Under the pieces are notes generated by a model that did not search any database, was not told the DNA's origin, and saw nothing but the letters and a program-made list of their open reading frames with translations. A stretch of DNA of 33,652 nt, from the NCBI GenBank assembly GCA_001791035.1, contig MGDX01000018.1, positions 1 through 33,652 of the forward strand, read 5' to 3'. This DNA comes from Candidatus Uhrbacteria bacterium RIFCSPHIGHO2_02_FULL_53_13 (lineage in GTDB: Bacteria > Patescibacteriota > Patescibacteriia > UBA9934 > UBA11717). Every line of letters starts with the position of its first letter. Position 1 is the first letter of the stretch. The position numbers and the translations under genes were made by a program. Below are positions 1 through 10,814 of the stretch, piece after piece.

Positions 1-343
1 GCTCTTTTGGCACCACCTTCACTCCGTAGCGAATCGACGCGATGATCCAGTACAAAAATCCGAGATCCCAGAGTAGCAACCAAAAGCGCGACGAAAGAAA
101 CGGCACGTGTTGCCAAGCGGCAAACCAATACAGCAACCCGAGGACACCCATCACGACGAGCATCACGGCCACGCGGCGTCCGATCTCTTTGCCGAACTTA
201 TCTTGCGCCTGTCGTCGCGTGACGAGCCGAACAATAGCGCCGACAATGACCGCCGCCAAAAAGAGAATGAAGTACAACTTCAACGTGACCGGCTCTTGTT
301 GCGGCGCACGATCGAACCAGAATGTGAGTGTAAGAATGCTCAT
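1..343 (-). CDS. Partial membrane protein (3' end beyond left edge): MSILTLTFWFDRAPQQEPVTLKLYFILFLAAVIVGAIVRLVTRRQ...
   Basis: Manual minus-strand translation from the CAT at 341-343 is open to the window edge. Several hydrophobic segments. Start overlaps the upstream stop (ATGA). Absent from the ORF track because it has no stop in the window. Confidence 0.75.
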   Translation of the reverse strand, partial: MSILTLTFWFDRAPQQEPVTLKLYFILFLAAVIVGAIVRLVTRRQAQDKFGKEIGRRVAVMLVVMGVLGLLYWFAAWQHVPFLSSRFWLLLWDLGFLYWIIASIRYGVKVVPKE

Positions 344-894
344 GTTTTATGACAGACAAATGCGTAATGGTATGGACCGACGTGGACATCGCCCTCGTAT
401 CGAAGCCCCGTCACAAGACAGATGGATCGAGCTTCGGCGTCCGTGATACGGCGTTTGATGTGCGGCCCATGGCGGATGGTTCCGGTTGGCTTCCAATCAA
501 CCACGACGATACGCCCGCCGGATTTTAGCAGACGGATGGCTTCCTTTACAACTTCGAGGCGATCGTCGAGAAGCGACAGGCCGTTGACGAGGAGTACAAC
601 GTCCGCCTCGCCGGACGGAAGCGGGATGCCACCGTGGCGCTGTGCGTTTCCCCAGATGGGCTCCACGTGTCCAAATCCCGCTACTTGGGCGCGTGCACGA
701 ATGCTGTCGAGCGCGGAGCGGCGAATGTCGATGGCAAACACGCGCCCGTCGGATCCCACAAGTTCCGCAGCCGGAAGCGTGCAGACACCGTGATGTCCGC
801 AATGCATATCCACCACCGATGCGCCACTGCGCAAACCGGCGGAGCGGCACACCGCGTATGGGTCAAAAAAATCCGTTGTTTGAGAAAGGCGCAT
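340..894 (-). CDS. Class I SAM-dependent methyltransferase
   Basis: VVDMHCGHHGVCTLPAAELVGSDGRVFAIDIRRSALDSIRARA...EADVVLLVNGLSLL...LKSGGRIVVVDWKP fits the Rossmann methyltransferase pattern. Internal ATG at 894 (TAATG overlap with the upstream stop) preferred over the track start at 1026. Confidence 0.8.
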   Translation of the reverse strand: MRLSQTTDFFDPYAVCRSAGLRSGASVVDMHCGHHGVCTLPAAELVGSDGRVFAIDIRRSALDSIRARAQVAGFGHVEPIWGNAQRHGGIPLPSGEADVVLLVNGLSLLDDRLEVVKEAIRLLKSGGRIVVVDWKPTGTIRHGPHIKRRITDAEARSICLVTGLRYEGDVHVGPYHYAFVCHKT

Positions 895-1154
895 TACCGC
901 GGTTTTGGAATGAAGGGGGATACGAGCCAAGCCATCAGGTCCATGTGCAGATTCGTCATGATAAAAAATCCGATAAAAATGGCGACCGTTCCGACGATTT
1001 TCATGATGCCCGTCGTACCGCCCCATATGGCAAATTGCGTTTCCGCCCAGTACGAGCGCCCCATCAAGTCAACAACATCAGAAGACTTCCATACCACCAA
1101 AAAACCAAACGCCGAGACGATGAGTCCAATGATGATGCGCCAAAACCAAGACAT
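894..1154 (-). CDS. Small (86 aa) integral membrane protein, hypothetical
   Basis: Two hydrophobic helices; stop overlaps the methyltransferase start (TAATG). Confidence 0.65.
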   Translation of the reverse strand: MSWFWRIIIGLIVSAFGFLVVWKSSDVVDLMGRSYWAETQFAIWGGTTGIMKIVGTVAIFIGFFIMTNLHMDLMAWLVSPFIPKPR

Positions 1155-1280
1155 AAGGTGAAATAAGAATGCGTATATTCACCTGTGCAGTATACCAAGA
1201 AAGAAGAGATCGAGAGAAACGAGCCGTGTCAAGAGCTCTGCAAACGAAAAACAACAATATCGCTGCCAATTGGTGCGCAT

Positions 1281-2003
1281 CTATATTTTTCCCGTAAACA
1301 CGTTTTCGAGCACGTTACTTTTCATCAACTCCTTCGGTTTCCCGTGAGCCACGACGCGCCCTTTATCGAGCACGTACCCGCGCGTTGCAACGGAGAGCAG
1401 CGACTTGATGTTGTGCTCAACCACCATGATGGCTGTGTTGCGACGCGCGTTGATTTCTTGCATAAGCGCAAAAACCTCTTTCACTATTTTGGGCGCAAGA
1501 CCTAGCGACGGTTCGTCCAAGAGCAAGACCTTTGGATCAGTCATCAGCCCTCGGGCAATCGCGAGTTGTTGCTGTTGCCCTCCCGAAAGCGAACCGGACG
1601 GAACAAAGAGTTTTGTTTTGAGCGCTGGAAATAATTCCAGAACCTCATCGATTCTTGCACTCGTCAGCTTCTTGTCCCGATTCGCATATCCACCAACTTC
1701 CAAGTTCTCACGCACCGTCAGACCAGAAAATACGCGCCGCCCTTGCGGAACAAATGCAATGCCGCGTTCCACAACCTCGTGCGAGATTGGCGTGAACGCC
1801 CTCTCGTGCCACAGCACTTCGCCATGCGTGATAGGTGCAAGGCCAAACATCGCTTTGAGGATCGTTGACTTCCCCGCACCATTTGGCCCCATCAAAGCCA
1901 CAATCTCGCCTTCATCCAGCGTAACCGTTACATGATCAAGAGCGTGCACGCCGCTGTACTGAACCGAAACGTCCTTGAGTTGTAAAAGCGTTTCCGTTTT
2001 CAT
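1281..2003 (-). CDS. livF: Branched-chain amino acid ABC transporter ATP-binding protein (LivF-like)
   Basis: Walker A GPNGAGKST, signature LSGGQQQQLAIARGL, Walker B VLLLDEPSLGLAP; position in liv operon. Confidence 0.92.
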   Translation of the reverse strand: MKTETLLQLKDVSVQYSGVHALDHVTVTLDEGEIVALMGPNGAGKSTILKAMFGLAPITHGEVLWHERAFTPISHEVVERGIAFVPQGRRVFSGLTVRENLEVGGYANRDKKLTSARIDEVLELFPALKTKLFVPSGSLSGGQQQQLAIARGLMTDPKVLLLDEPSLGLAPKIVKEVFALMQEINARRNTAIMVVEHNIKSLLSVATRGYVLDKGRVVAHGKPKELMKSNVLENVFTGKI

Positions 2004-2737
2004 ACGCCCAAATACGCCTCAATCACTGCTGGATTTGTCAGAACTTGCTTGGGCATTCCTTCTGCAAGAAGTTGCCCCGCATCCATCACAATAATGCGGT
2101 CACAGAGCTCACGAATGATAGCCATGTCGTGTTCAATAAGCACGACGGTTTTTTCTCCGGCTCGGAGTTCCTTTAGGATATCGGAAACGACTCTCACCAT
2201 CTCGGGAAAAAGACCAGCGAACGGTTCATCAAAAAGAATCATATCAGCACTGGTGGCAAGAGCACGCGCAATCTCCAAGAGTTTGCGCTGCCCATACGAA
2301 AGCTCTTTTGCAAGCGCGCGGCGCTTATCATACAGCCCAACACGAGTAAGCACTTCTTTGACGAGTGTCTCGTGAATATCACGATGTCTTTCAAATAACG
2401 CAGCAAGAGGCGAGCGCTTCGTCATGGCAATGAGCACGTTATCCTGCACGCTCATCTGCTCAAAGAGTCGAATGTTCTGAAACGTGCGCGCGATCCCAAG
2501 CTCGAATACCTCCCATGCCTTAATCCCCCCTTTTTCTTGTTGATCTCCTATGACGACACGCCCACCATCCATCGCGCTGATACCGGTGAGCACATTGATG
2601 AACGTGGTTTTGCCCGAACCGTTTGGACCGATGATGCCCGTGATTTCACCTTTGCGAATCTGAACAGAAAAACGATCAATCGCGACAACCCCGCCAAATT
2701 TTTTCACGAGCTGCTTTGTTTCAAGAGCGTTCGTCAT
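2000..2737 (-). CDS. livG: Branched-chain amino acid ABC transporter ATP-binding protein (LivG-like)
   Basis: Walker A GPNGSGKTT, signature LSYGQRKLLEIARAL, Walker B MILFDEPFAGL; ATGA overlaps with neighbours. Confidence 0.92.
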   Translation of the reverse strand: MTNALETKQLVKKFGGVVAIDRFSVQIRKGEITGIIGPNGSGKTTFINVLTGISAMDGGRVVIGDQQEKGGIKAWEVFELGIARTFQNIRLFEQMSVQDNVLIAMTKRSPLAALFERHRDIHETLVKEVLTRVGLYDKRRALAKELSYGQRKLLEIARALATSADMILFDEPFAGLFPEMVRVVSDILKELRAGEKTVVLIEHDMAIIRELCDRIIVMDAGQLLAEGMPKQVLTNPAVIEAYLGV

Positions 2738-3600
2738 AGTTTATAAGTGCCGACAAGTCCCTGTGGTCGGTACAGCATCAGCAAAACAAGTATGACACCG
2801 TACAAGAGTTGGCGCATTTGTGCGGCGATATCGGAAGGAAGACCGACAAATCGTAGTAGCTCTGGCAAGAGCACAAGGACAACGGCTCCCATGAGCGGTC
2901 CGCGCAATGATCCGGCACCGCCGAGAATCACGATCGCGAGAATGAAAATGGATTCATTGACCGAAAAGGCCGACGGCGCAATAAAGGTGATGTAACTTGC
3001 GTACAAGCCACCAGCAATCGCCGCCATGCCAGCGGCTATCGTAAAAATGATAAGTTTGTATGAAGTCGTACGATATCCAAAAACAGAAATTGCGGTTTCG
3101 TCTTCACGGATCGCCGTAAGAATTCTGCCGAATGAAGAACGAACCATGAAGCGTGCGAGAGCGTACACACACGCAAGCACAACAAGAGCAAGCAACAAAA
3201 AGGCAACGTTTTCGACAAACGTGAAACCAAACATGTCTGGGCGCGGTATGCCCGGAATCCCAAAGGGCCCACGCGTCACTTGAAGCCAGTTTTGGAATAC
3301 AACATAAACGATCACCCCAAAACCGAGTGATGCGAGAGCATAGTAATCCGTTTTGAACTTTGAGAGCACAACGCCAATCAGGAGCGCAACAAGCATCGTG
3401 ATCACCACTGCAAGCGGAAGAGCAAAAAAGAAATTCAAACCGAGCATCTTCAACAAAAGTGTCGTCGCGTACGCACCAATGCCATAAAATGCCGCGTGCG
3501 CAACCGAAAGCATGCCGGTATAGCCGACGATGAGATCAAGCGAGATCGCCAAGATGCCAAAGATGGCAGAGAAGATCGCAATGTGAATCAGGTACTCCAT
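2734..3600 (-). CDS. livM: Branched-chain amino acid ABC transporter permease (LivM-like)
   Basis: DLIVGYTGMLSVAHAAFYGIGAYA...GGAGSLRGPLMGAVV motifs; start reassigned to MEYLIHIAIFSAIF at 3600. Confidence 0.92.
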   Translation of the reverse strand: MEYLIHIAIFSAIFGILAISLDLIVGYTGMLSVAHAAFYGIGAYATTLLLKMLGLNFFFALPLAVVITMLVALLIGVVLSKFKTDYYALASLGFGVIVYVVFQNWLQVTRGPFGIPGIPRPDMFGFTFVENVAFLLLALVVLACVYALARFMVRSSFGRILTAIREDETAISVFGYRTTSYKLIIFTIAAGMAAIAGGLYASYITFIAPSAFSVNESIFILAIVILGGAGSLRGPLMGAVVLVLLPELLRFVGLPSDIAAQMRQLLYGVILVLLMLYRPQGLVGTYKL

Positions 3601-3602
3601 AC

Positions 3603-4472
3603 TTATTTTCTTCCGAGAATACCGAAAGGTCTCAACAGCAAGAACAGAATCAGAATAGAAAATGAGATCGCGTCTTTCCACTCCCCGGGAATAAACCACA
3701 CTCCGACATTCTCTGAAAACCCCAAAAGATAAGCGCCTAACAATGCGCCCGGTACAGATCCCATACCGCCGATGATCGCCGCAATCACTCCTTTGAGAAG
3801 AAGGGGCAGCCCCATAATGGGTTCAATGCCGGTATCAAAGCCGGATAGAATGCCCGCCATGCCAGCAAGCATGGAACCAATCACAAATGTTTTGCCGATC
3901 ACTTTATGAGTGTTAATGCCGACGATTTTTGCAACTTCCTCGTCGTCGGCGGTGGCGCGAACGACTTTGCCGAACGACGTTTTTTTGAGAATCAACCATA
4001 CACAAACGAATGCCGCCAATGCGGTCCCTACAAGAACAATTTGCACATCGGTGATCGTGGCTCCCGCAACCGTGAATGGAGATCCTCCTTCAAGAATCGG
4101 AGCGAGTGTCAAAAATTGCGAACCAAACAACAGAGCAATGAGCGCCTGAATAGCCGTGAATGCCCCAAGAGATGCGACAAGAAGAACGAGCGCGGAAGAT
4201 TTGCGCGATCGAAGTGGAGAAAACACACATCGCTCTAGAAGCCATCCCACGAGCGTGGCGATGAGAATGCCCAGTGCGACCGCAACCATCACAGGGAGCC
4301 CGAGCATTCTTCCAAAGAAAAACACTCCATATCCACCCACAGCTGCCAAAACACCATGAGCAAGATTAAAAAACTTGGTGACGCTATATATGAGCGAGAA
4401 GCCCATCGCCACAAGCGCATAGAGCGATCCTGCGATGATGGAATTGATGATGATCTGTGGAACAATACTCAT
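3603..4472 (-). CDS. livH: Branched-chain amino acid ABC transporter permease (LivH-like)
   Basis: INSIIAGSLYALVAMGFSLIYSVTKFFNLAHG...IIGGMGSVPGALLGAYLLG typical of LivH. Confidence 0.93.
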   Translation of the reverse strand: MSIVPQIIINSIIAGSLYALVAMGFSLIYSVTKFFNLAHGVLAAVGGYGVFFFGRMLGLPVMVAVALGILIATLVGWLLERCVFSPLRSRKSSALVLLVASLGAFTAIQALIALLFGSQFLTLAPILEGGSPFTVAGATITDVQIVLVGTALAAFVCVWLILKKTSFGKVVRATADDEEVAKIVGINTHKVIGKTFVIGSMLAGMAGILSGFDTGIEPIMGLPLLLKGVIAAIIGGMGSVPGALLGAYLLGFSENVGVWFIPGEWKDAISFSILILFLLLRPFGILGRK

Positions 4473-4501
4473 ACGGGTTTACTCCCGAGAGTGAAACAGC
4501 A

Positions 4502-4527
4502 AACTGCCCCACTCTCGCGGGGCAGTT
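4502..4527 (-). promoter_or_regulatory. Intercistronic hairpin between livJ and livH
   Basis: AACTGCCCC-ACTCTCGC-GGGGCAGTT, 9-bp perfect stem, no strong T tract; lies between the livJ stop (4537) and livH start (4472). Confidence 0.65.
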
Positions 4528-4536
4528 GTTGTTACA

Positions 4537-5655
4537 TTACTTTACGAGCTCTGCCTTTCCGTTTTTATAGACAAAGACTTCGTAGGCGGCCTTTTCCAGA
4601 TCGCCATTATCATCGTAACTGATCTCTGGGAATGAAACTCCTTCGGTATAGGTAAGATCATTGAGCCCCTTCACCACCGCGGCGGCATCCGTGCCGGATT
4701 TCTCCATGATGCCCGCATAAATCTTGAGAGCATCGTAGGCGAGCGGTGCGATGATGTTTGCATCGACACCGGTCAATGCCTTCACTTGCGCCTTAAACTC
4801 GTCTGTATTATTAACCTTTGCGGCCGTGTACATCACTCCCTCACTCACGCCAGAGTTTACGATCTCATCTCCAAGAAATGCATCTCCACCGATCAGCGGT
4901 ACATCTACACCGGCTTCCTTGAATTGCTTGATGGCTGCAATGCCCCCCGCTGGGAAAAGAGGTACATACACGATGTCCGGATTTGTATTCTTGATCTTAC
5001 TGACTTGTGTGCGCACATCTTTCACATCCTGTGCCACGCCCTCATCAAAGAGAATCTCGCCGCCAAGCTCCTTAAAACGCTCAACGAACACTCGACGAAG
5101 CCCAACACCCCATTCGTTGTTCACATACAGAACGGCAACTTTGCGCGCGCCAAGGTCGCTATAGAGATATTCGGCGGCAAACTTACCCTGGAACGCATCA
5201 GACGGATACGTACTGAAGATCGAGTCTGGCCCGCCAGCGAGTCCCGGGGCAGATGCTCCAATCAGAATGAGCGGCACTTCGGCAGAGCGAGCAATTGGGA
5301 TTGCCGCACCGGCAACCGGCGAACACACAGGTCCGATGATTGCACTGACCTTATCAACGTTCACGAGCTTCTGCATGGCACTCACGCCTGACGGACTGCA
5401 AGTGTCGTCCTCGAACACGAGTTCGATCATGCGGCCGTTGACGCCGCCGGCTTCGTTAATTTCTTTCTGTGCAAGAAGCGCACCGGCACGAGCACTTTCA
5501 CCGTAACTTGCCGCCTCACCAGAGAGCGGTGAAGAGACACCGATTTTAATGGGTCCCTCCTCACTCACGGTTTTATTATCGCCAGAAAGAAGCCACAAGC
5601 CCCCTCCTACAACAATGACCGCAACGACTATCCAAAGGATATTCCTATTATTCAT
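4537..5655 (-). CDS. livJ: Branched-chain amino acid ABC transporter substrate-binding protein (LivJ/LivK-like)
   Basis: PIKIGVSSPLSGEAASYGESARAGALLAQKEINEAGGVNGRMIELVFEDDTC is the periplasmic binding protein type 1 pattern; N-terminal signal-anchor, no lipobox Cys. Confidence 0.93.
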   Translation of the reverse strand: MNNRNILWIVVAVIVVGGGLWLLSGDNKTVSEEGPIKIGVSSPLSGEAASYGESARAGALLAQKEINEAGGVNGRMIELVFEDDTCSPSGVSAMQKLVNVDKVSAIIGPVCSPVAGAAIPIARSAEVPLILIGASAPGLAGGPDSIFSTYPSDAFQGKFAAEYLYSDLGARKVAVLYVNNEWGVGLRRVFVERFKELGGEILFDEGVAQDVKDVRTQVSKIKNTNPDIVYVPLFPAGGIAAIKQFKEAGVDVPLIGGDAFLGDEIVNSGVSEGVMYTAAKVNNTDEFKAQVKALTGVDANIIAPLAYDALKIYAGIMEKSGTDAAAVVKGLNDLTYTEGVSFPEISYDDNGDLEKAAYEVFVYKNGKAELVK

Positions 5656-5781: not shown

Positions 5782-5802
5782 TGGTGCGCGCTGAGGGATT
5801 CG
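5782..5802 (-). repeat. 21-bp direct repeat of the 3' end (with CCA) of tRNA-Val(UAC); decayed tRNA end or att-like site
   Basis: TGGTGCGCGCTGAGGGATTCG occurs exactly at 5782-5802 and 6247-6267 in the same orientation. Confidence 0.75.
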
Positions 5803-6246: not shown

Positions 6247-6323
6247 TGGTGCGCGCTGAGGGATTCGAACCCCCGACCCTCTCGGTGTAAACGAGATGCT
6301 CTAACCAACTGAGCTAAGCGCGC
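6247..6323 (-). tRNA. tRNA-Val(UAC)
   Basis: GCGCGCTTAGCTCAGTTGGTTAGAGCATCTCGTTTACACCGAGAGGGTCGGGGGTTCGAATCCCTCAGCGCGCACCA; cloverleaf with 7-bp acceptor, loop TTTACAC, encoded CCA. Confidence 0.96.
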
Positions 6324-6356
6324 GTATTTATTGCACGGTGCAGACTAGCATTGCTC

Positions 6357-6392
6357 AAAAAAAAAGCCAAGAGGCTTGGGGCTAGCCTCTTG
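6357..6392 (-). terminator. Intrinsic terminator of the 6382-6951 gene
   Basis: Minus strand CAAGAGGCT-AGCCCCA-AGCCTCTTG then GC and nine T; the stop codon lies inside the hairpin. Confidence 0.8.
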
Positions 6393-6951
6393 AAGCATCG
6401 AGTGTGCTGCACACGGTCGCAGCAAGATCAGAATACGGCTTAGACAGCCATCTGCGCTCGCGATGTGCGCCGACCCAAAGGGCTATCACTGCTTTTTCGA
6501 GCGCACGCCCCTTCTGCTCGCATTTTGCCATCCTCCAAACAAACGCAAGTGCCATCAGCGTCGAAAGAAAGTTGCAGTAAAACCAATCGGGGTTGACAGC
6601 CGCGGACTGCGCGAACGCATACGTCCACAGATTCTCCTTGAATACTGTTGGCTGAAACGCTGACAAGTTCGGTCGGAAAAGATATGGAGTGCACTTCCAT
6701 ACTGTCACTCTTGCTGTTGCTGCACGATCCATGATGACGGCACGCATAGCGCTCGCGCTATCGCATGCCTCGCTCGCGCGTGGCGGAACAAACACCTGAT
6801 ACCGATAGGCTCCGTCAGGGAGAAAATCCGCTCCAGTCAATCGCACGAACGGTACATCGGGCATCCCCATATGTACCGCAACCAATCCAACCGCCTTAGC
6901 GATTTGATCGCCGGAAGGCTCAAGCGTAAGCAGAAGAACGCGATCTTCCAT
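6382..6951 (-). CDS. Hypothetical protein (orphan; alternative start at 6987)
   Basis: Open frame ending exactly in a strong terminator; GGTAGG Shine-Dalgarno-like sequence before the inner ATG (MEDRVLLLTLEPSGDQ...). No recognised domain. Confidence 0.6.
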   Translation of the reverse strand: MEDRVLLLTLEPSGDQIAKAVGLVAVHMGMPDVPFVRLTGADFLPDGAYRYQVFVPPRASEACDSASAMRAVIMDRAATARVTVWKCTPYLFRPNLSAFQPTVFKENLWTYAFAQSAAVNPDWFYCNFLSTLMALAFVWRMAKCEQKGRALEKAVIALWVGAHRERRWLSKPYSDLAATVCSTLDASRG

Positions 6952-6990
6952 GTTGCGCAACCTACCATGTGTGACTGTATGCGTCAATCG

Positions 6991-7019
6991 TTGACACTGG
7001 CGCTTCTAATTGGCATACT
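6991..7019 (+). promoter_or_regulatory. Sigma70-type promoter of tRNA-Leu(GAG)
   Basis: TTGACA - 17 bp - CATACT, 9 bp upstream of the tRNA 5' end. Confidence 0.75.
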
Positions 7020-7028
7020 CCTCTGCGC

Positions 7029-7116
7029 GCGGACGTGGCGGAATGGTAGACGCGCTAGCTTGAGGGGCTAGTGGGCTCTTTTGCCCGTGGAGGTTCAAGT
7101 CCTCTCGTCCGCACCA
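7029..7116 (+). tRNA. tRNA-Leu(GAG)
   Basis: GCGGACGTGGCGGAATGGTAGACGCGCTAGCTTGAGGGGCTAG...GTTCAAGTCCTCTCGTCCGCACCA; class II variable arm, loop TTGAGGG, encoded CCA. Confidence 0.96.
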
Positions 7117-7214
7117 ATAGGGAACTCAACGATTTTTTCGGTGGATTCAAGCGGACGGCGCAAAGCGCCGACCAAGAATTTTTTGGCGGGATTGCAAGGG
7201 AATTCAGAATTTCT

Positions 7215-7248
7215 GGCGCGCAAGCGCGCAGTGTTTTTTCGCCGAGAA
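7215..7248 (+). terminator. Candidate intrinsic terminator downstream of tRNA-Leu(GAG)
   Basis: CTGGCGCGCAAGCGCGCAG hairpin followed by TGTTTTTTCG. Confidence 0.55.
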
Positions 7249-7443
7249 GGAGGTGCGAGCCAAAGATTTCTTTGGCACAGACCTTTTTCGCAAAAAGGTC
7301 TGAATCAGAAGCAATTTTGTCCAAGGATTGAGCGTCTTTTAGCCAGTTTTGGAAAGGTGCGAGCCAATCATTCTGCTTGTGTGAAAAGTTAGAGATTTCT
7401 TCTTCGAGCGACTTCTTTTCAGATAGCAGTTTAGCTTTTTAAG

Positions 7444-7480
7444 GAAAAAAATCTATCCCCTCCGCAGAGTCGCGAAGGGG
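7444..7480 (-). terminator. Intrinsic terminator of the 7500-9227 gene
   Basis: Minus strand CCCCTTCGC-GACTCT-GCGGAGGGG followed by ATAGATTTTTTT. Confidence 0.75.
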
Positions 7481-7499: not shown

Positions 7500-9227
7500 T
7501 TACTTGCCCGTGATACGTGGGATGGCATCGGCCTCAAGGTCGCGCGCGATATTTACGATCAGCTCCCAAATACTGACGTAGCTATCGCGAACGATGCTGT
7601 ACTTCTCCATACAATAGTTTGGCGCGCGACCCGGCGGACGGTCGTATTGCGCATTCTCCCCGGAAAGATGCGGCAAGATTCTTCTTTTCCGCAACAGCAG
7701 GCGATACAAATCCACGTGCCGGACAGGCAGGCCGAATCGGAAGTCCTTCGCCGCGTGCTCGAGCACCGTCTGCACCGCGTACGCCATGCTCTTGAACATC
7801 TCCTTGTCCAGAGTCTCGGCATGCCGCTTGCCACAAACATTGCAACGGCCGTAATAGGTCCCAAGAGCTCTAAGTGCAATGATGCGCAGGTCGTTGAAGA
7901 TGTACGCCCACGACCCGTAAGTCTCCACGGATCCAAGGTGCTCGCGGACGCATTTGAATTCCTCGCGCGTTGCGACAAGGAATCCACAGTTTACGGAACC
8001 GCGTACGGAACTCGGCAACTTCCATTTGGCAAAATCCAAATGTTCCCTCGGCCAATCGTCCGTATTTGGACACTCTATGCACCAGGTTCGCACCACCTCA
8101 AAACATTCGTCAACACTCAAATAAGACCGTTGCGCCTTGTATTTCTCAAGCAGGAGTGCGCGCCATGCCTTCTCGTTTCCAACCAAGCGCTCCAACATGA
8201 GGAGCGCGCCAAGAGCCTTCCTTTTTGTGCGAAGACCCTGAACTTTCGCGTATCGGTATGACAGAGAAAGTGCATTGCGAGCGGATTCGATGCCGCCGTT
8301 TTCAAACGCAATCATGCCAAGAAGCAGCCATGCCTCTGCGTTGGAACTGCGCTTCTTCAAAGCGCGCTCCAGATTTCCAATGGCCGCCGGCTGGTTGCCA
8401 GCTTCAAGATCCACAAGCGCGAACTTATACAGCTCTTCCGCCTCAATACTGCGCCCGTTTGCGGCGAGTTCGCGCAGAGTCTCATCAATAGACGCGACTT
8501 CCGTACGCAGTACTTCAACGCCAGTCGTATGCAAATGCGTCATGCGCTCAAGCAGAGCAAGGTGGTGACGTTGGCTGATGACGCCAAGGCCATGCAGAAG
8601 TGCGTGCGTTGCGCGAGCGCTTCCAACAACTGCATCGGATACCCGACGTGCGCCATCGTGAACGGCGTGCACAGTTTGAGCGGCCGCATCATCCACACGA
8701 TCGGCAACGCGATCGAGCCCTTCACGTACGTCATCAAAACCGCGTCCGAGTGTCTCGTCCAAGGAAGCCAGCTCCTCGGATCGGCGTCGATCCGCCTTCA
8801 CAAGGTGCGCCGCCACCACACCAATACCGCCTCCAATACCCATGAGGAGCGCGTTACTCCTCTCTTGTGCATCCAAAACATCGGGCAAATAACTGGTGTA
8901 GGCATTGATCGCATCCAGCGTCTCATTCCCAATGTCCGCCTTCTCTGCCAACACGGTCAAACTGGAATTCATTAGGCGACCTGCTTCGTGGAGTGCGTCC
9001 TGAACCGCACCGAGATTGTCGGAAACGGCGCCAACGTATTCACCAAGTCCGCCCATGTCGACGGTGACCTCCACCGGAGAATATTCGGAATATTCTCGAT
9101 TCCCCGAGCGCTCAATCACACGTTCGATGGCTTCGATAGCCCGAGTTTGGCGCGCAACATGATCCGTGCGCTGTTCCTCAAGCGATGGACCCCACTGGGG
9201 TTCTCGGTCTTCTTTCCTGGTGCTCAT
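7500..9227 (-). CDS. Uncharacterised protein: N-terminal coiled coil with hydrophobic segment, central TPR-like repeats, C-terminal region with CNVCGKRH
   Basis: Heptad-rich N-terminus; AEELYKFALVDLEAGNQPAAIGNLERALKKRSSNAEAWLLLGMIAFENGGIESARNALSLSYRYA is TPR-like. ATGA overlap with the upstream gene supports the start at 9227 (MSTRKEDREPQ). Confidence 0.8.
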   Translation of the reverse strand: MSTRKEDREPQWGPSLEEQRTDHVARQTRAIEAIERVIERSGNREYSEYSPVEVTVDMGGLGEYVGAVSDNLGAVQDALHEAGRLMNSSLTVLAEKADIGNETLDAINAYTSYLPDVLDAQERSNALLMGIGGGIGVVAAHLVKADRRRSEELASLDETLGRGFDDVREGLDRVADRVDDAAAQTVHAVHDGARRVSDAVVGSARATHALLHGLGVISQRHHLALLERMTHLHTTGVEVLRTEVASIDETLRELAANGRSIEAEELYKFALVDLEAGNQPAAIGNLERALKKRSSNAEAWLLLGMIAFENGGIESARNALSLSYRYAKVQGLRTKRKALGALLMLERLVGNEKAWRALLLEKYKAQRSYLSVDECFEVVRTWCIECPNTDDWPREHLDFAKWKLPSSVRGSVNCGFLVATREEFKCVREHLGSVETYGSWAYIFNDLRIIALRALGTYYGRCNVCGKRHAETLDKEMFKSMAYAVQTVLEHAAKDFRFGLPVRHVDLYRLLLRKRRILPHLSGENAQYDRPPGRAPNYCMEKYSIVRDSYVSIWELIVNIARDLEADAIPRITGK

Positions 9228-9940
9228 GGACGAAGCTTTTCCAATCTTTCCAAGCAAATTCGCTCACCTGCCGTGGATTCGTGCACTGCAAAGGCCCCAA
9301 ACAACACCAGAATTAGCAAAACTGCTAAAACGGTGAGTGAAAGAGAGACTTTGGCTTCTTTCACTGCTTGATCGAATGCACGGTCTTGACTGGTAAATTC
9401 GAATCGTCGCTGACCAACAGCGGCATCTCGTTCGTCAACAGCTACCGAACGTTTTTTGAGCTCTGCGCGCTCGGCCTCAAGCTCTGCGCGCGCTACAGCC
9501 TGCTCGTCTGCAAAGGTAACGCGCTCGTCCTCAAGATCGGTCTTGTACTTTGCACACACCAAGGCCAACTCGTTTTCAAGGGTTCTTTCAATCTTGAGGT
9601 CGCCTTCAACTTTCGTTTTCTGCTCCCGCAGGTCGACCACTCTTGATTCAAGCCCTTTGATGCTTTGCTGCAGTTCGTCTATTCTACGAGCTAGCGCTGA
9701 ACACGATGCTGTCAGCTGACTCAAACGACTTTCCTGTAAAAGAATCTCTGAGACCAATGAGCTCTCCGTCGTTGACAGAGATGTGAGACGTGCTGTCTTT
9801 GTAGCTATGTCCTGAGAAACAGCCGCCTTCTGCACTTCCAGCTCTCGAAGTTCGGCATCGAGCGCAGTCAAGAAACGATCCAAATCCAAAATGCCCCAAT
9901 CCGGGAACCGCAATGACGTTTGACGTTCAGTCTCTGTCAT
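9224..9940 (-). CDS. Uncharacterised long coiled-coil protein with C-terminal transmembrane helix
   Basis: Extended coiled coil (SRLSQLTASCSALARRIDELQQSIKGLESRVVDLREQKTKVEGDL...) then SLSLTVLAVLLILVLFGAFAV. Confidence 0.8.
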   Translation of the reverse strand: MTETERQTSLRFPDWGILDLDRFLTALDAELRELEVQKAAVSQDIATKTARLTSLSTTESSLVSEILLQESRLSQLTASCSALARRIDELQQSIKGLESRVVDLREQKTKVEGDLKIERTLENELALVCAKYKTDLEDERVTFADEQAVARAELEAERAELKKRSVAVDERDAAVGQRRFEFTSQDRAFDQAVKEAKVSLSLTVLAVLLILVLFGAFAVHESTAGERICLERLEKLRP

Positions 9941-10011
9941 TTGTGTAACCTTGTAAGGTACGCCATCAGACTAGCAAAAATGCCATCTGAGGTCAATACA
10001 CCACGCCCAAA

Positions 10012-10033
10012 CAAAAAATCGGCGTTTGCCGAC
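10012..10033 (-). terminator. Intrinsic terminator downstream of the DAGK-like gene
   Basis: Minus strand TCGGC-AAAC-GCCGA followed by TTTTTTG. Confidence 0.75.
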
Positions 10034-10076
10034 ATCATCCATTGCCACAAAGTTGTAAGCGGTGACACCGCAACCA

Positions 10077-10814
10077 TCAAATACTCCGTTCACGGCCGAC
10101 AATCACCTGGAGCGCGCCCGGCTCGGACGAAAGCATAAACTGATTCCCCGTGATTTCCACGCCGTTCGCCTCAACTCGCACCGCGTCTTCAAATAACAAC
10201 TGCGCGCGCTTGAGCGGAAGATGACTTTGCACCTGTCGCTTGCGAAAACGCCCCGGAACATATTGCGTGATAAATAGATCAAGCACACCATCGGTCGGCT
10301 GCGCCATCAAACCCACTTCAGGATCGGTTTCCAAATTCACCACCTGTACATCGCCCTTGCGCTCCATGATGACGTCGTATTGCTTTTCGTAACGCACCAC
10401 GCCGCGCGATGACGGAAACGAGATATTCGTAAAAAATCGGTGATCGTTCACCCGTCCGGCGTCCAGCTTTTCGATATTGCGTTTCGTAAGCACATCGCAC
10501 GCCGCAACACCATTTGGAATCCCCAAAATCCGCGCCATCGAGTTTGGTGTTCCCATCGGAATGATCCCAAGCACCATATGGTGATCCACGATCGCATTGG
10601 CAACTTTGTGCACGGTCTCGTCGTTGCCCACCACCACAACCGTTTTGACACCCGAAGCCACTTCGCGTTCAATAATCTCATTCGGATGCCGAAAAAGCGC
10701 GAGCCGCACAATCTTTCCCTGCAATCCAAGATCCGTGATGCGCGCTTCAATAGCCGCAAGCTCGCGCTCAAACTTTCGCTCCTGAACAAAATCGTCGTAA
10801 ATGTAGCAATACAT
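10077..10814 (-). CDS. Diacylglycerol kinase/LCB-kinase family-like protein with altered catalytic motif
   Basis: VVVVGNDETVHKVANAIVDHHMVLGIIPMGTPNSMARILGIP resembles the DAGK catalytic domain (canonical GGDGT...NEVANG...G.P.GTGNDFAR). Confidence 0.75.
   Translation of the reverse strand: MYCYIYDDFVQERKFERELAAIEARITDLGLQGKIVRLALFRHPNEIIEREVASGVKTVVVVGNDETVHKVANAIVDHHMVLGIIPMGTPNSMARILGIPNGVAACDVLTKRNIEKLDAGRVNDHRFFTNISFPSSRGVVRYEKQYDVIMERKGDVQVVNLETDPEVGLMAQPTDGVLDLFITQYVPGRFRKRQVQSHLPLKRAQLLFEDAVRVEANGVEITGNQFMLSSEPGALQVIVGRERSI

Follow-up and report, generated by a model that had tools for sequence, protein, structure and literature searches.

A rare TPR protein family and a tRNA-Leu(gag)/tRNA-Val(tac) integration hotspot in Candidatus Uhrbacteria

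We analyzed two adjacent genes in a 33,652-base window at the start of an 80-kb contig from a 928-kb genome; the named members of the order concerned are Candidatus Uhrbacteria. Judged from the loci compared, the tRNA-Leu(gag)/tRNA-Val(tac) pair beside these genes is an integration hotspot across the order, and this hotspot accounts for their location. The product of the longer gene, P0001, is by its sequence a member of a rare, patchy, and unnamed family. The usable result is the hotspot together with the P0001 family, and the idea that P0001 and its neighbor P0002 form a two-gene system was weakened. The pair is not a known system, and the function discussed below is an unproven proposal.

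The features of the two-gene locus are as follows.
9224..9940, minus strand: P0002 gene, 238 aa (ORF calls)
7500..9227, minus strand: P0001 gene, 575 aa (ORF calls)
9224..9227, minus strand: ATGA stop/start overlap joining P0002 and P0001 (sequence)
7457..7480, minus strand: intrinsic terminator of the P0002/P0001 pair, 10-bp stem and T-run (terminator scan)
10018..10033, minus strand: terminator-like hairpin behind the lipid-kinase gene, separating that gene from P0002 (terminator scan)

Both ORFs were found where the first-pass annotation had placed them, and the junction, CGTCCATGAGC, was read directly; its ATGA (9224-9227) is common to the stop codon (TGA) of P0002 and the start codon (ATG) of P0001. 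On the 3′ side of P0001, a strong GC-rich hairpin with a 10-bp stem and a T-run (7480-7457, -18.2 kcal/mol) bore out the claim that the pair ends at a terminator of its own. The hairpin at 10033-10018 was weaker. As the terminator scan overall was mildly above chance (8 found versus 4.3 ± 2.2 expected), the case for these terminators is based on the position and strength of the hairpins and not on scan counts. Given the hairpins on both flanks, the P0002/P0001 pair is probably a single transcription unit. The base composition of P0001 was unremarkable (GC 0.557, GC3 0.597), and that of P0002 was lower (GC 0.502, GC3 0.477).

The following features define the hotspot in the window.
7029..7116, plus strand: tRNA-Leu(gag), presumed target site of the recombinase lineage (tRNA search)
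6247..6323, minus strand: tRNA-Val(tac), second tRNA of the conserved pair (tRNA search)
10077..10814, minus strand: DAGK-type lipid kinase gene, conserved core gene at the other side of the hotspot (domain match and locus comparison)
7085..7438, minus strand: serine recombinase remnant, C-terminal 118 aa only (61% identical to the intact G025 recombinase)
5782..5802, minus strand: exact direct repeat of the tRNA-Val(tac) 3′ end, 21 bp (repeat search)

In nearly all loci read with enough flank, the layout across the order was a lipid-kinase gene followed by tRNA-Val(tac)/tRNA-Leu(gag), often with methyltransferase-like, YraN-like, and NusA-like genes beyond the tRNA pair (names judged by reading the sequences alone). 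The lipid-kinase gene is a core gene of the order that occurs with or without a TPR gene, and variable genes are inserted around the tRNA pair. The P0001/P0002 pair was absent from the hotspot in G001 and G002, which belong to the same family as the source genome. In G025 the site is occupied by an ORF for a recombinase of 552 aa (domains: Resolvase, Recombinase, and zinc ribbon), the end of which overlaps tRNA-Leu(gag), and beyond it lie a zeta-toxin-like gene and an HD-domain gene. The cargo of G012 comprises a type I restriction-modification (R-M) methylase, a BRO-type protein, and an OLD-family ATPase, and in G035 a TPR family member of its own lies directly behind the same tRNA-Leu(gag).

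The recombinase remnant in the window matched the intact copy at the same tRNA in G025 over 118 aa with 61% identity (E=6e-35). It ends antisense inside tRNA-Leu(gag), and the missing rest breaks off right at the P0001 terminator; from this alignment, it is the pseudogene of a truncated large serine recombinase. What had been described as a hairpin-rich non-coding region beside tRNA-Leu is largely this remnant (7085-7438, minus strand). The antisense strand of tRNA-Leu in G035 also resembles the recombinase end, but most of this resemblance comes from the tRNA sequence, and no remnant was scored there. An integrase remnant was present beside the target tRNA, the site was empty or differently filled in relatives, and the accessory-type location proposed in the first-pass annotation is strongly supported by the tRNA hotspot and the truncated recombinase. 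The 21-bp tRNA-Val repeat at 5782-5802 is a probable att relic of another insertion. No tRNA-Leu att repeat was found at 9900-10150; because a second such repeat around the pair was not seen, assignment of the pair to the element that left the recombinase remnant is unproven and is considered putative. Genomic islands that target tRNA genes have been catalogued by Islander (PMC4383910). The present locus resembles them in its cargo beside a tRNA gene, its integrase remnant, and its tRNA-fragment repeat, but its recombinase is of the large serine type and not the tyrosine type, and a matching att pair around the P0001/P0002 cargo was not found.

Several further observations were made around the hotspot. 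The orientation of the tRNA pair in some genomes of the order (for example, the window, G012, G020, G033, G016, and G045) is inverted relative to others (G001, G002, G022, G010, G025, and G007), which suggests that inversion of the pair is recurrent at this site (window 6247-7116, loci L062-L081). LAGLIDADG-like ORFs adjoin tRNA-Leu(gag) in several genomes, mostly between the two tRNAs (L016 7249-7941, L068, L071, L081). In the window, the two tRNAs are separated by a 201-aa ORF (6382-6987, minus strand) for which Pfam, NCBIfam, and PADLOC gave no match. A branched-chain amino-acid type ABC transporter operon (340-5655), including a periplasmic binding protein (4537-5655) and a permease (3603-4472), lies beyond the scar marked by the tRNA-Val repeat; only 20 of the 72 genomes compared from the order have a relative of the binding protein. 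In G001, a partial duplication of the tRNA-Val 3′ region (L062 2300-3200) precedes the full tRNA gene and is a probable further insertion scar at the same hotspot.

P0001 consists of a helical N-terminus (1-255), a TPR domain (about 261-430), and a divergent C-terminus. The TPR_16 match (E=5.8e-7, residues 267-319) scored 30.3 bits, below the Pfam gathering score of 32.7, and AF2 predicted confident helical repeats at 261-430 (pLDDT mostly 74-90). The N-terminus was modeled as helical at low confidence, and confidence was also low for the C-terminus (433-575). With the motif of the TPR superfamily present in both the domain match and the predicted fold, the TPR in P0001 is judged real, as had been called for the 575-aa protein. 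Sequence and fold searches returned TPR scaffolds only, the Foldseek matches including the magnetosome protein MamA and the envelope protein LapB. P0001 shares helical hairpins at 261-430 with such generic TPR scaffolds (TPR_16; MamA, 3vtx; consensus TPR, 8ump/9qhc; LapB, 7wzb), but nothing in them corresponds to its long helical region at the N-terminus or to its divergent C-terminus.

A zinc site had been proposed for the CxxC region of P0001. The protein contains two CxxC pairs, C383/C386 and C462/C465, which were absent from all six relatives; conserved cysteine ligands were thus not found, and the pairs are private to P0001. P0001 may still have a private zinc site, the predicted structure of residues 433-575 being of low confidence.

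A putative membrane segment had been assigned to both proteins, and this held only for P0002. P0002 was predicted by AF2 in single-sequence mode as one long charged helix (residues 17-236, ~220 residues, pLDDT 84), and the C-terminal TM segment is clear (residues 201-219, mean hydropathy 2.8). P0002 is therefore convincingly membrane-anchored. The hydrophobic stretch of P0001 at 125-143 is Gly-rich, with a mean hydropathy of 1.66 and an unfavorable insertion score, and appears to be a poor TM candidate; the aligned position in the Peregrinibacteria member carries a similar patch. In a membrane-tethered P0001-P0002 complex, P0002 would thus provide a convincing anchor, but P0001 would not.

Six further proteins with the layout of P0001 (a helical N-terminus, a TPR core of ~100 aa, and a variable tail) were found, in G045, G035, G019 (two), G399 (a Peregrinibacterium), and, more distantly, G216. 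P0001 scored 60 bits against a profile built from five other members with P0001 left out. Its N-terminal half without the TPR scored 18.3 bits with the family profile versus a maximum of 4.8 in 300 shuffles, indicating that the proteins form a family beyond their shared TPRs. Shared residues are kept across the family at about 23% identity. Members occur in 4 of 73 genomes of the order and, counting the source genome, in 3 of 380 genomes of the phylum sample and 2 of 381 of the class sample. The relatives are few and divergent. Its divergence made profile A1 unsuitable for the contig scan, and the core-only profile A2 recovered three members, which carry the names Ca. Uhrbacteria and Ca. Peregrinibacteria. 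Candidates L009-L011 and L014 were generic TPR matches without the N-terminal region and were rejected; one of them had appeared in the family-profile list at 4.7 bits. Single-protein searches with P0001 returned nothing in phages, plasmids, IMG/VR, or GTDB contigs, and nothing was found in plasmids for relatives L017 and L026 or in phages for L017. Literature searches covering Uhrbacteria and the serine recombinases of the candidate phyla radiation turned up nothing about the P0001 family. Four of the seven family members adjoin a tRNA gene (p ~0.002 by a rough binomial estimate, assuming 9% per gene, our own estimate from about 40 tRNA genes per 0.9- to 1.1-Mb genome).

The first-pass annotation had described a two-gene module and had named homologs of the two genes occurring apart as evidence against it. 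For the TPR gene, this is what was found: in the loci examined, a P0002-like neighbor is missing from all six P0001 relatives, including the second G019 copy, where the contig begins about 530 bases upstream and only a short flank is readable. P0002 itself had no recognizable homolog in sequence searches; a match in G081 looks like an HlyD-type secretion protein, covered the coil only, and was rejected as a relative. The pair is therefore not a conserved two-gene system. The C-termini vary among family members; in the G035 protein and in one of the two from G019, the C-terminus is formed by a charged helix or coil and a TM segment, in place of a P0002-like neighbor. P0002 showed no sequence similarity to the fused tails of these TPR relatives (lowest E value 2.1 against the tails and 0.42 against all family members).

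The earlier statement that the pair matches no named system was borne out by searches of Pfam, NCBIfam, PHROGs, and PADLOC. PADLOC-DB 2.0 gave no significant full-domain match, only low-score coiled-coil matches; the weak matches (ZorA, JetC, LmuB), as well as those to SMC/CENP-F, were judged coiled-coil noise. The resemblance to Zorya is limited to a weak coiled-coil match of the ZorA tail (E=7.5e-4, 16 bits), and the pair differs in having no MotA/ExbB/TolQ membrane domain (Pfam) and no other Zorya gene beside it; in place of a ZorB partner, P0002 is a plain helix with a TM segment. Domain searches of P0001 and P0002 revealed no effector domain. Because of this and because PADLOC gave nothing beyond coiled-coil noise, defense is not directly supported.

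The best reading of the locus as a whole is that of island cargo encoding a membrane-tethered TPR scaffold, possibly for defense, and we regard its correctness as an even call. The pair would be cargo brought to the tRNA-Leu(gag)/tRNA-Val(tac) hotspot by a genomic island or by successive insertions, and the island would now be fixed because only a C-terminal fragment of its serine recombinase is left. P0001 would act as a helical TPR scaffold that probably oligomerizes through its N-terminal helices and binds a partner in the groove of its TPR core, with the fast-changing C-terminus giving specificity. P0002, translated just before P0001, would be a cytoplasmic rod with a C-terminal TM anchor and would most likely tether P0001 to the membrane; in two relatives, tethering may be done by the coil and TM segment at the TPR protein's own end. 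The role would most plausibly be conflict-related, against phage or other elements, and is proposed on the grounds that another genome has R-M and OLD-type genes at this position. We infer the pair's own mobility, the tethering by P0002, and this role, the last of which, taken alone, is only weakly indicated and unlikely. The reading is weakened by the missing second att repeat, the unremarkable base composition of P0001, the dissimilarity of P0002 to the fused tails, and the lack of an effector domain or a PADLOC match beyond noise.

P0001 and P0002 could also be unrelated accessory genes that became adjacent by chance in a variable locus, the ATGA being ordinary packing with no complex formed. 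Short gene overlaps are common in compact genomes, and the solitary relatives of P0001 and the lack of a recognizable P0002 homolog are in line with such an origin. Terminators on both sides, which make the pair look like one transcription unit, and the recurrence of coil and TM modules as fusions in two relatives argue against it, and we consider it somewhat unlikely.

It appears improbable that the pair is a horizontally acquired and since domesticated scaffold serving the envelope, division, or a surface appendage rather than conflict. The Foldseek matches to TPR scaffolds such as MamA and LapB would fit, as would the cytoskeletal and membrane functions of the neighboring bactofilin and lipid-kinase genes; however, any TPR fold yields such matches, the lipid kinase is found in the order whether or not a TPR gene is present, and a core envelope role would call for a much commoner family. 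That the pair is a decaying, functionless remnant like the truncated recombinase next to it is hardly credible, since the two genes are uninterrupted across their 575 and 238 codons, the junction that couples them is clean, a terminator follows, and the TPR family keeps its shared residues despite its low identity.

The P0001 family might represent a new kind of anti-mobile-element system in Patescibacteria, with a TPR scaffold that is fixed to the membrane through its own tail or through a coiled-coil anchor encoded separately, and spread as cargo of tRNA-targeting serine-recombinase islands, a prospect we rate as distinctly improbable. The genomes of Patescibacteria are very small, yet one tRNA locus in this order stays open to a changing set of cargo genes. 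A rare TPR family found repeatedly beside tRNA genes is a candidate for a role in defense or conflict in organisms about whose immunity little is known.
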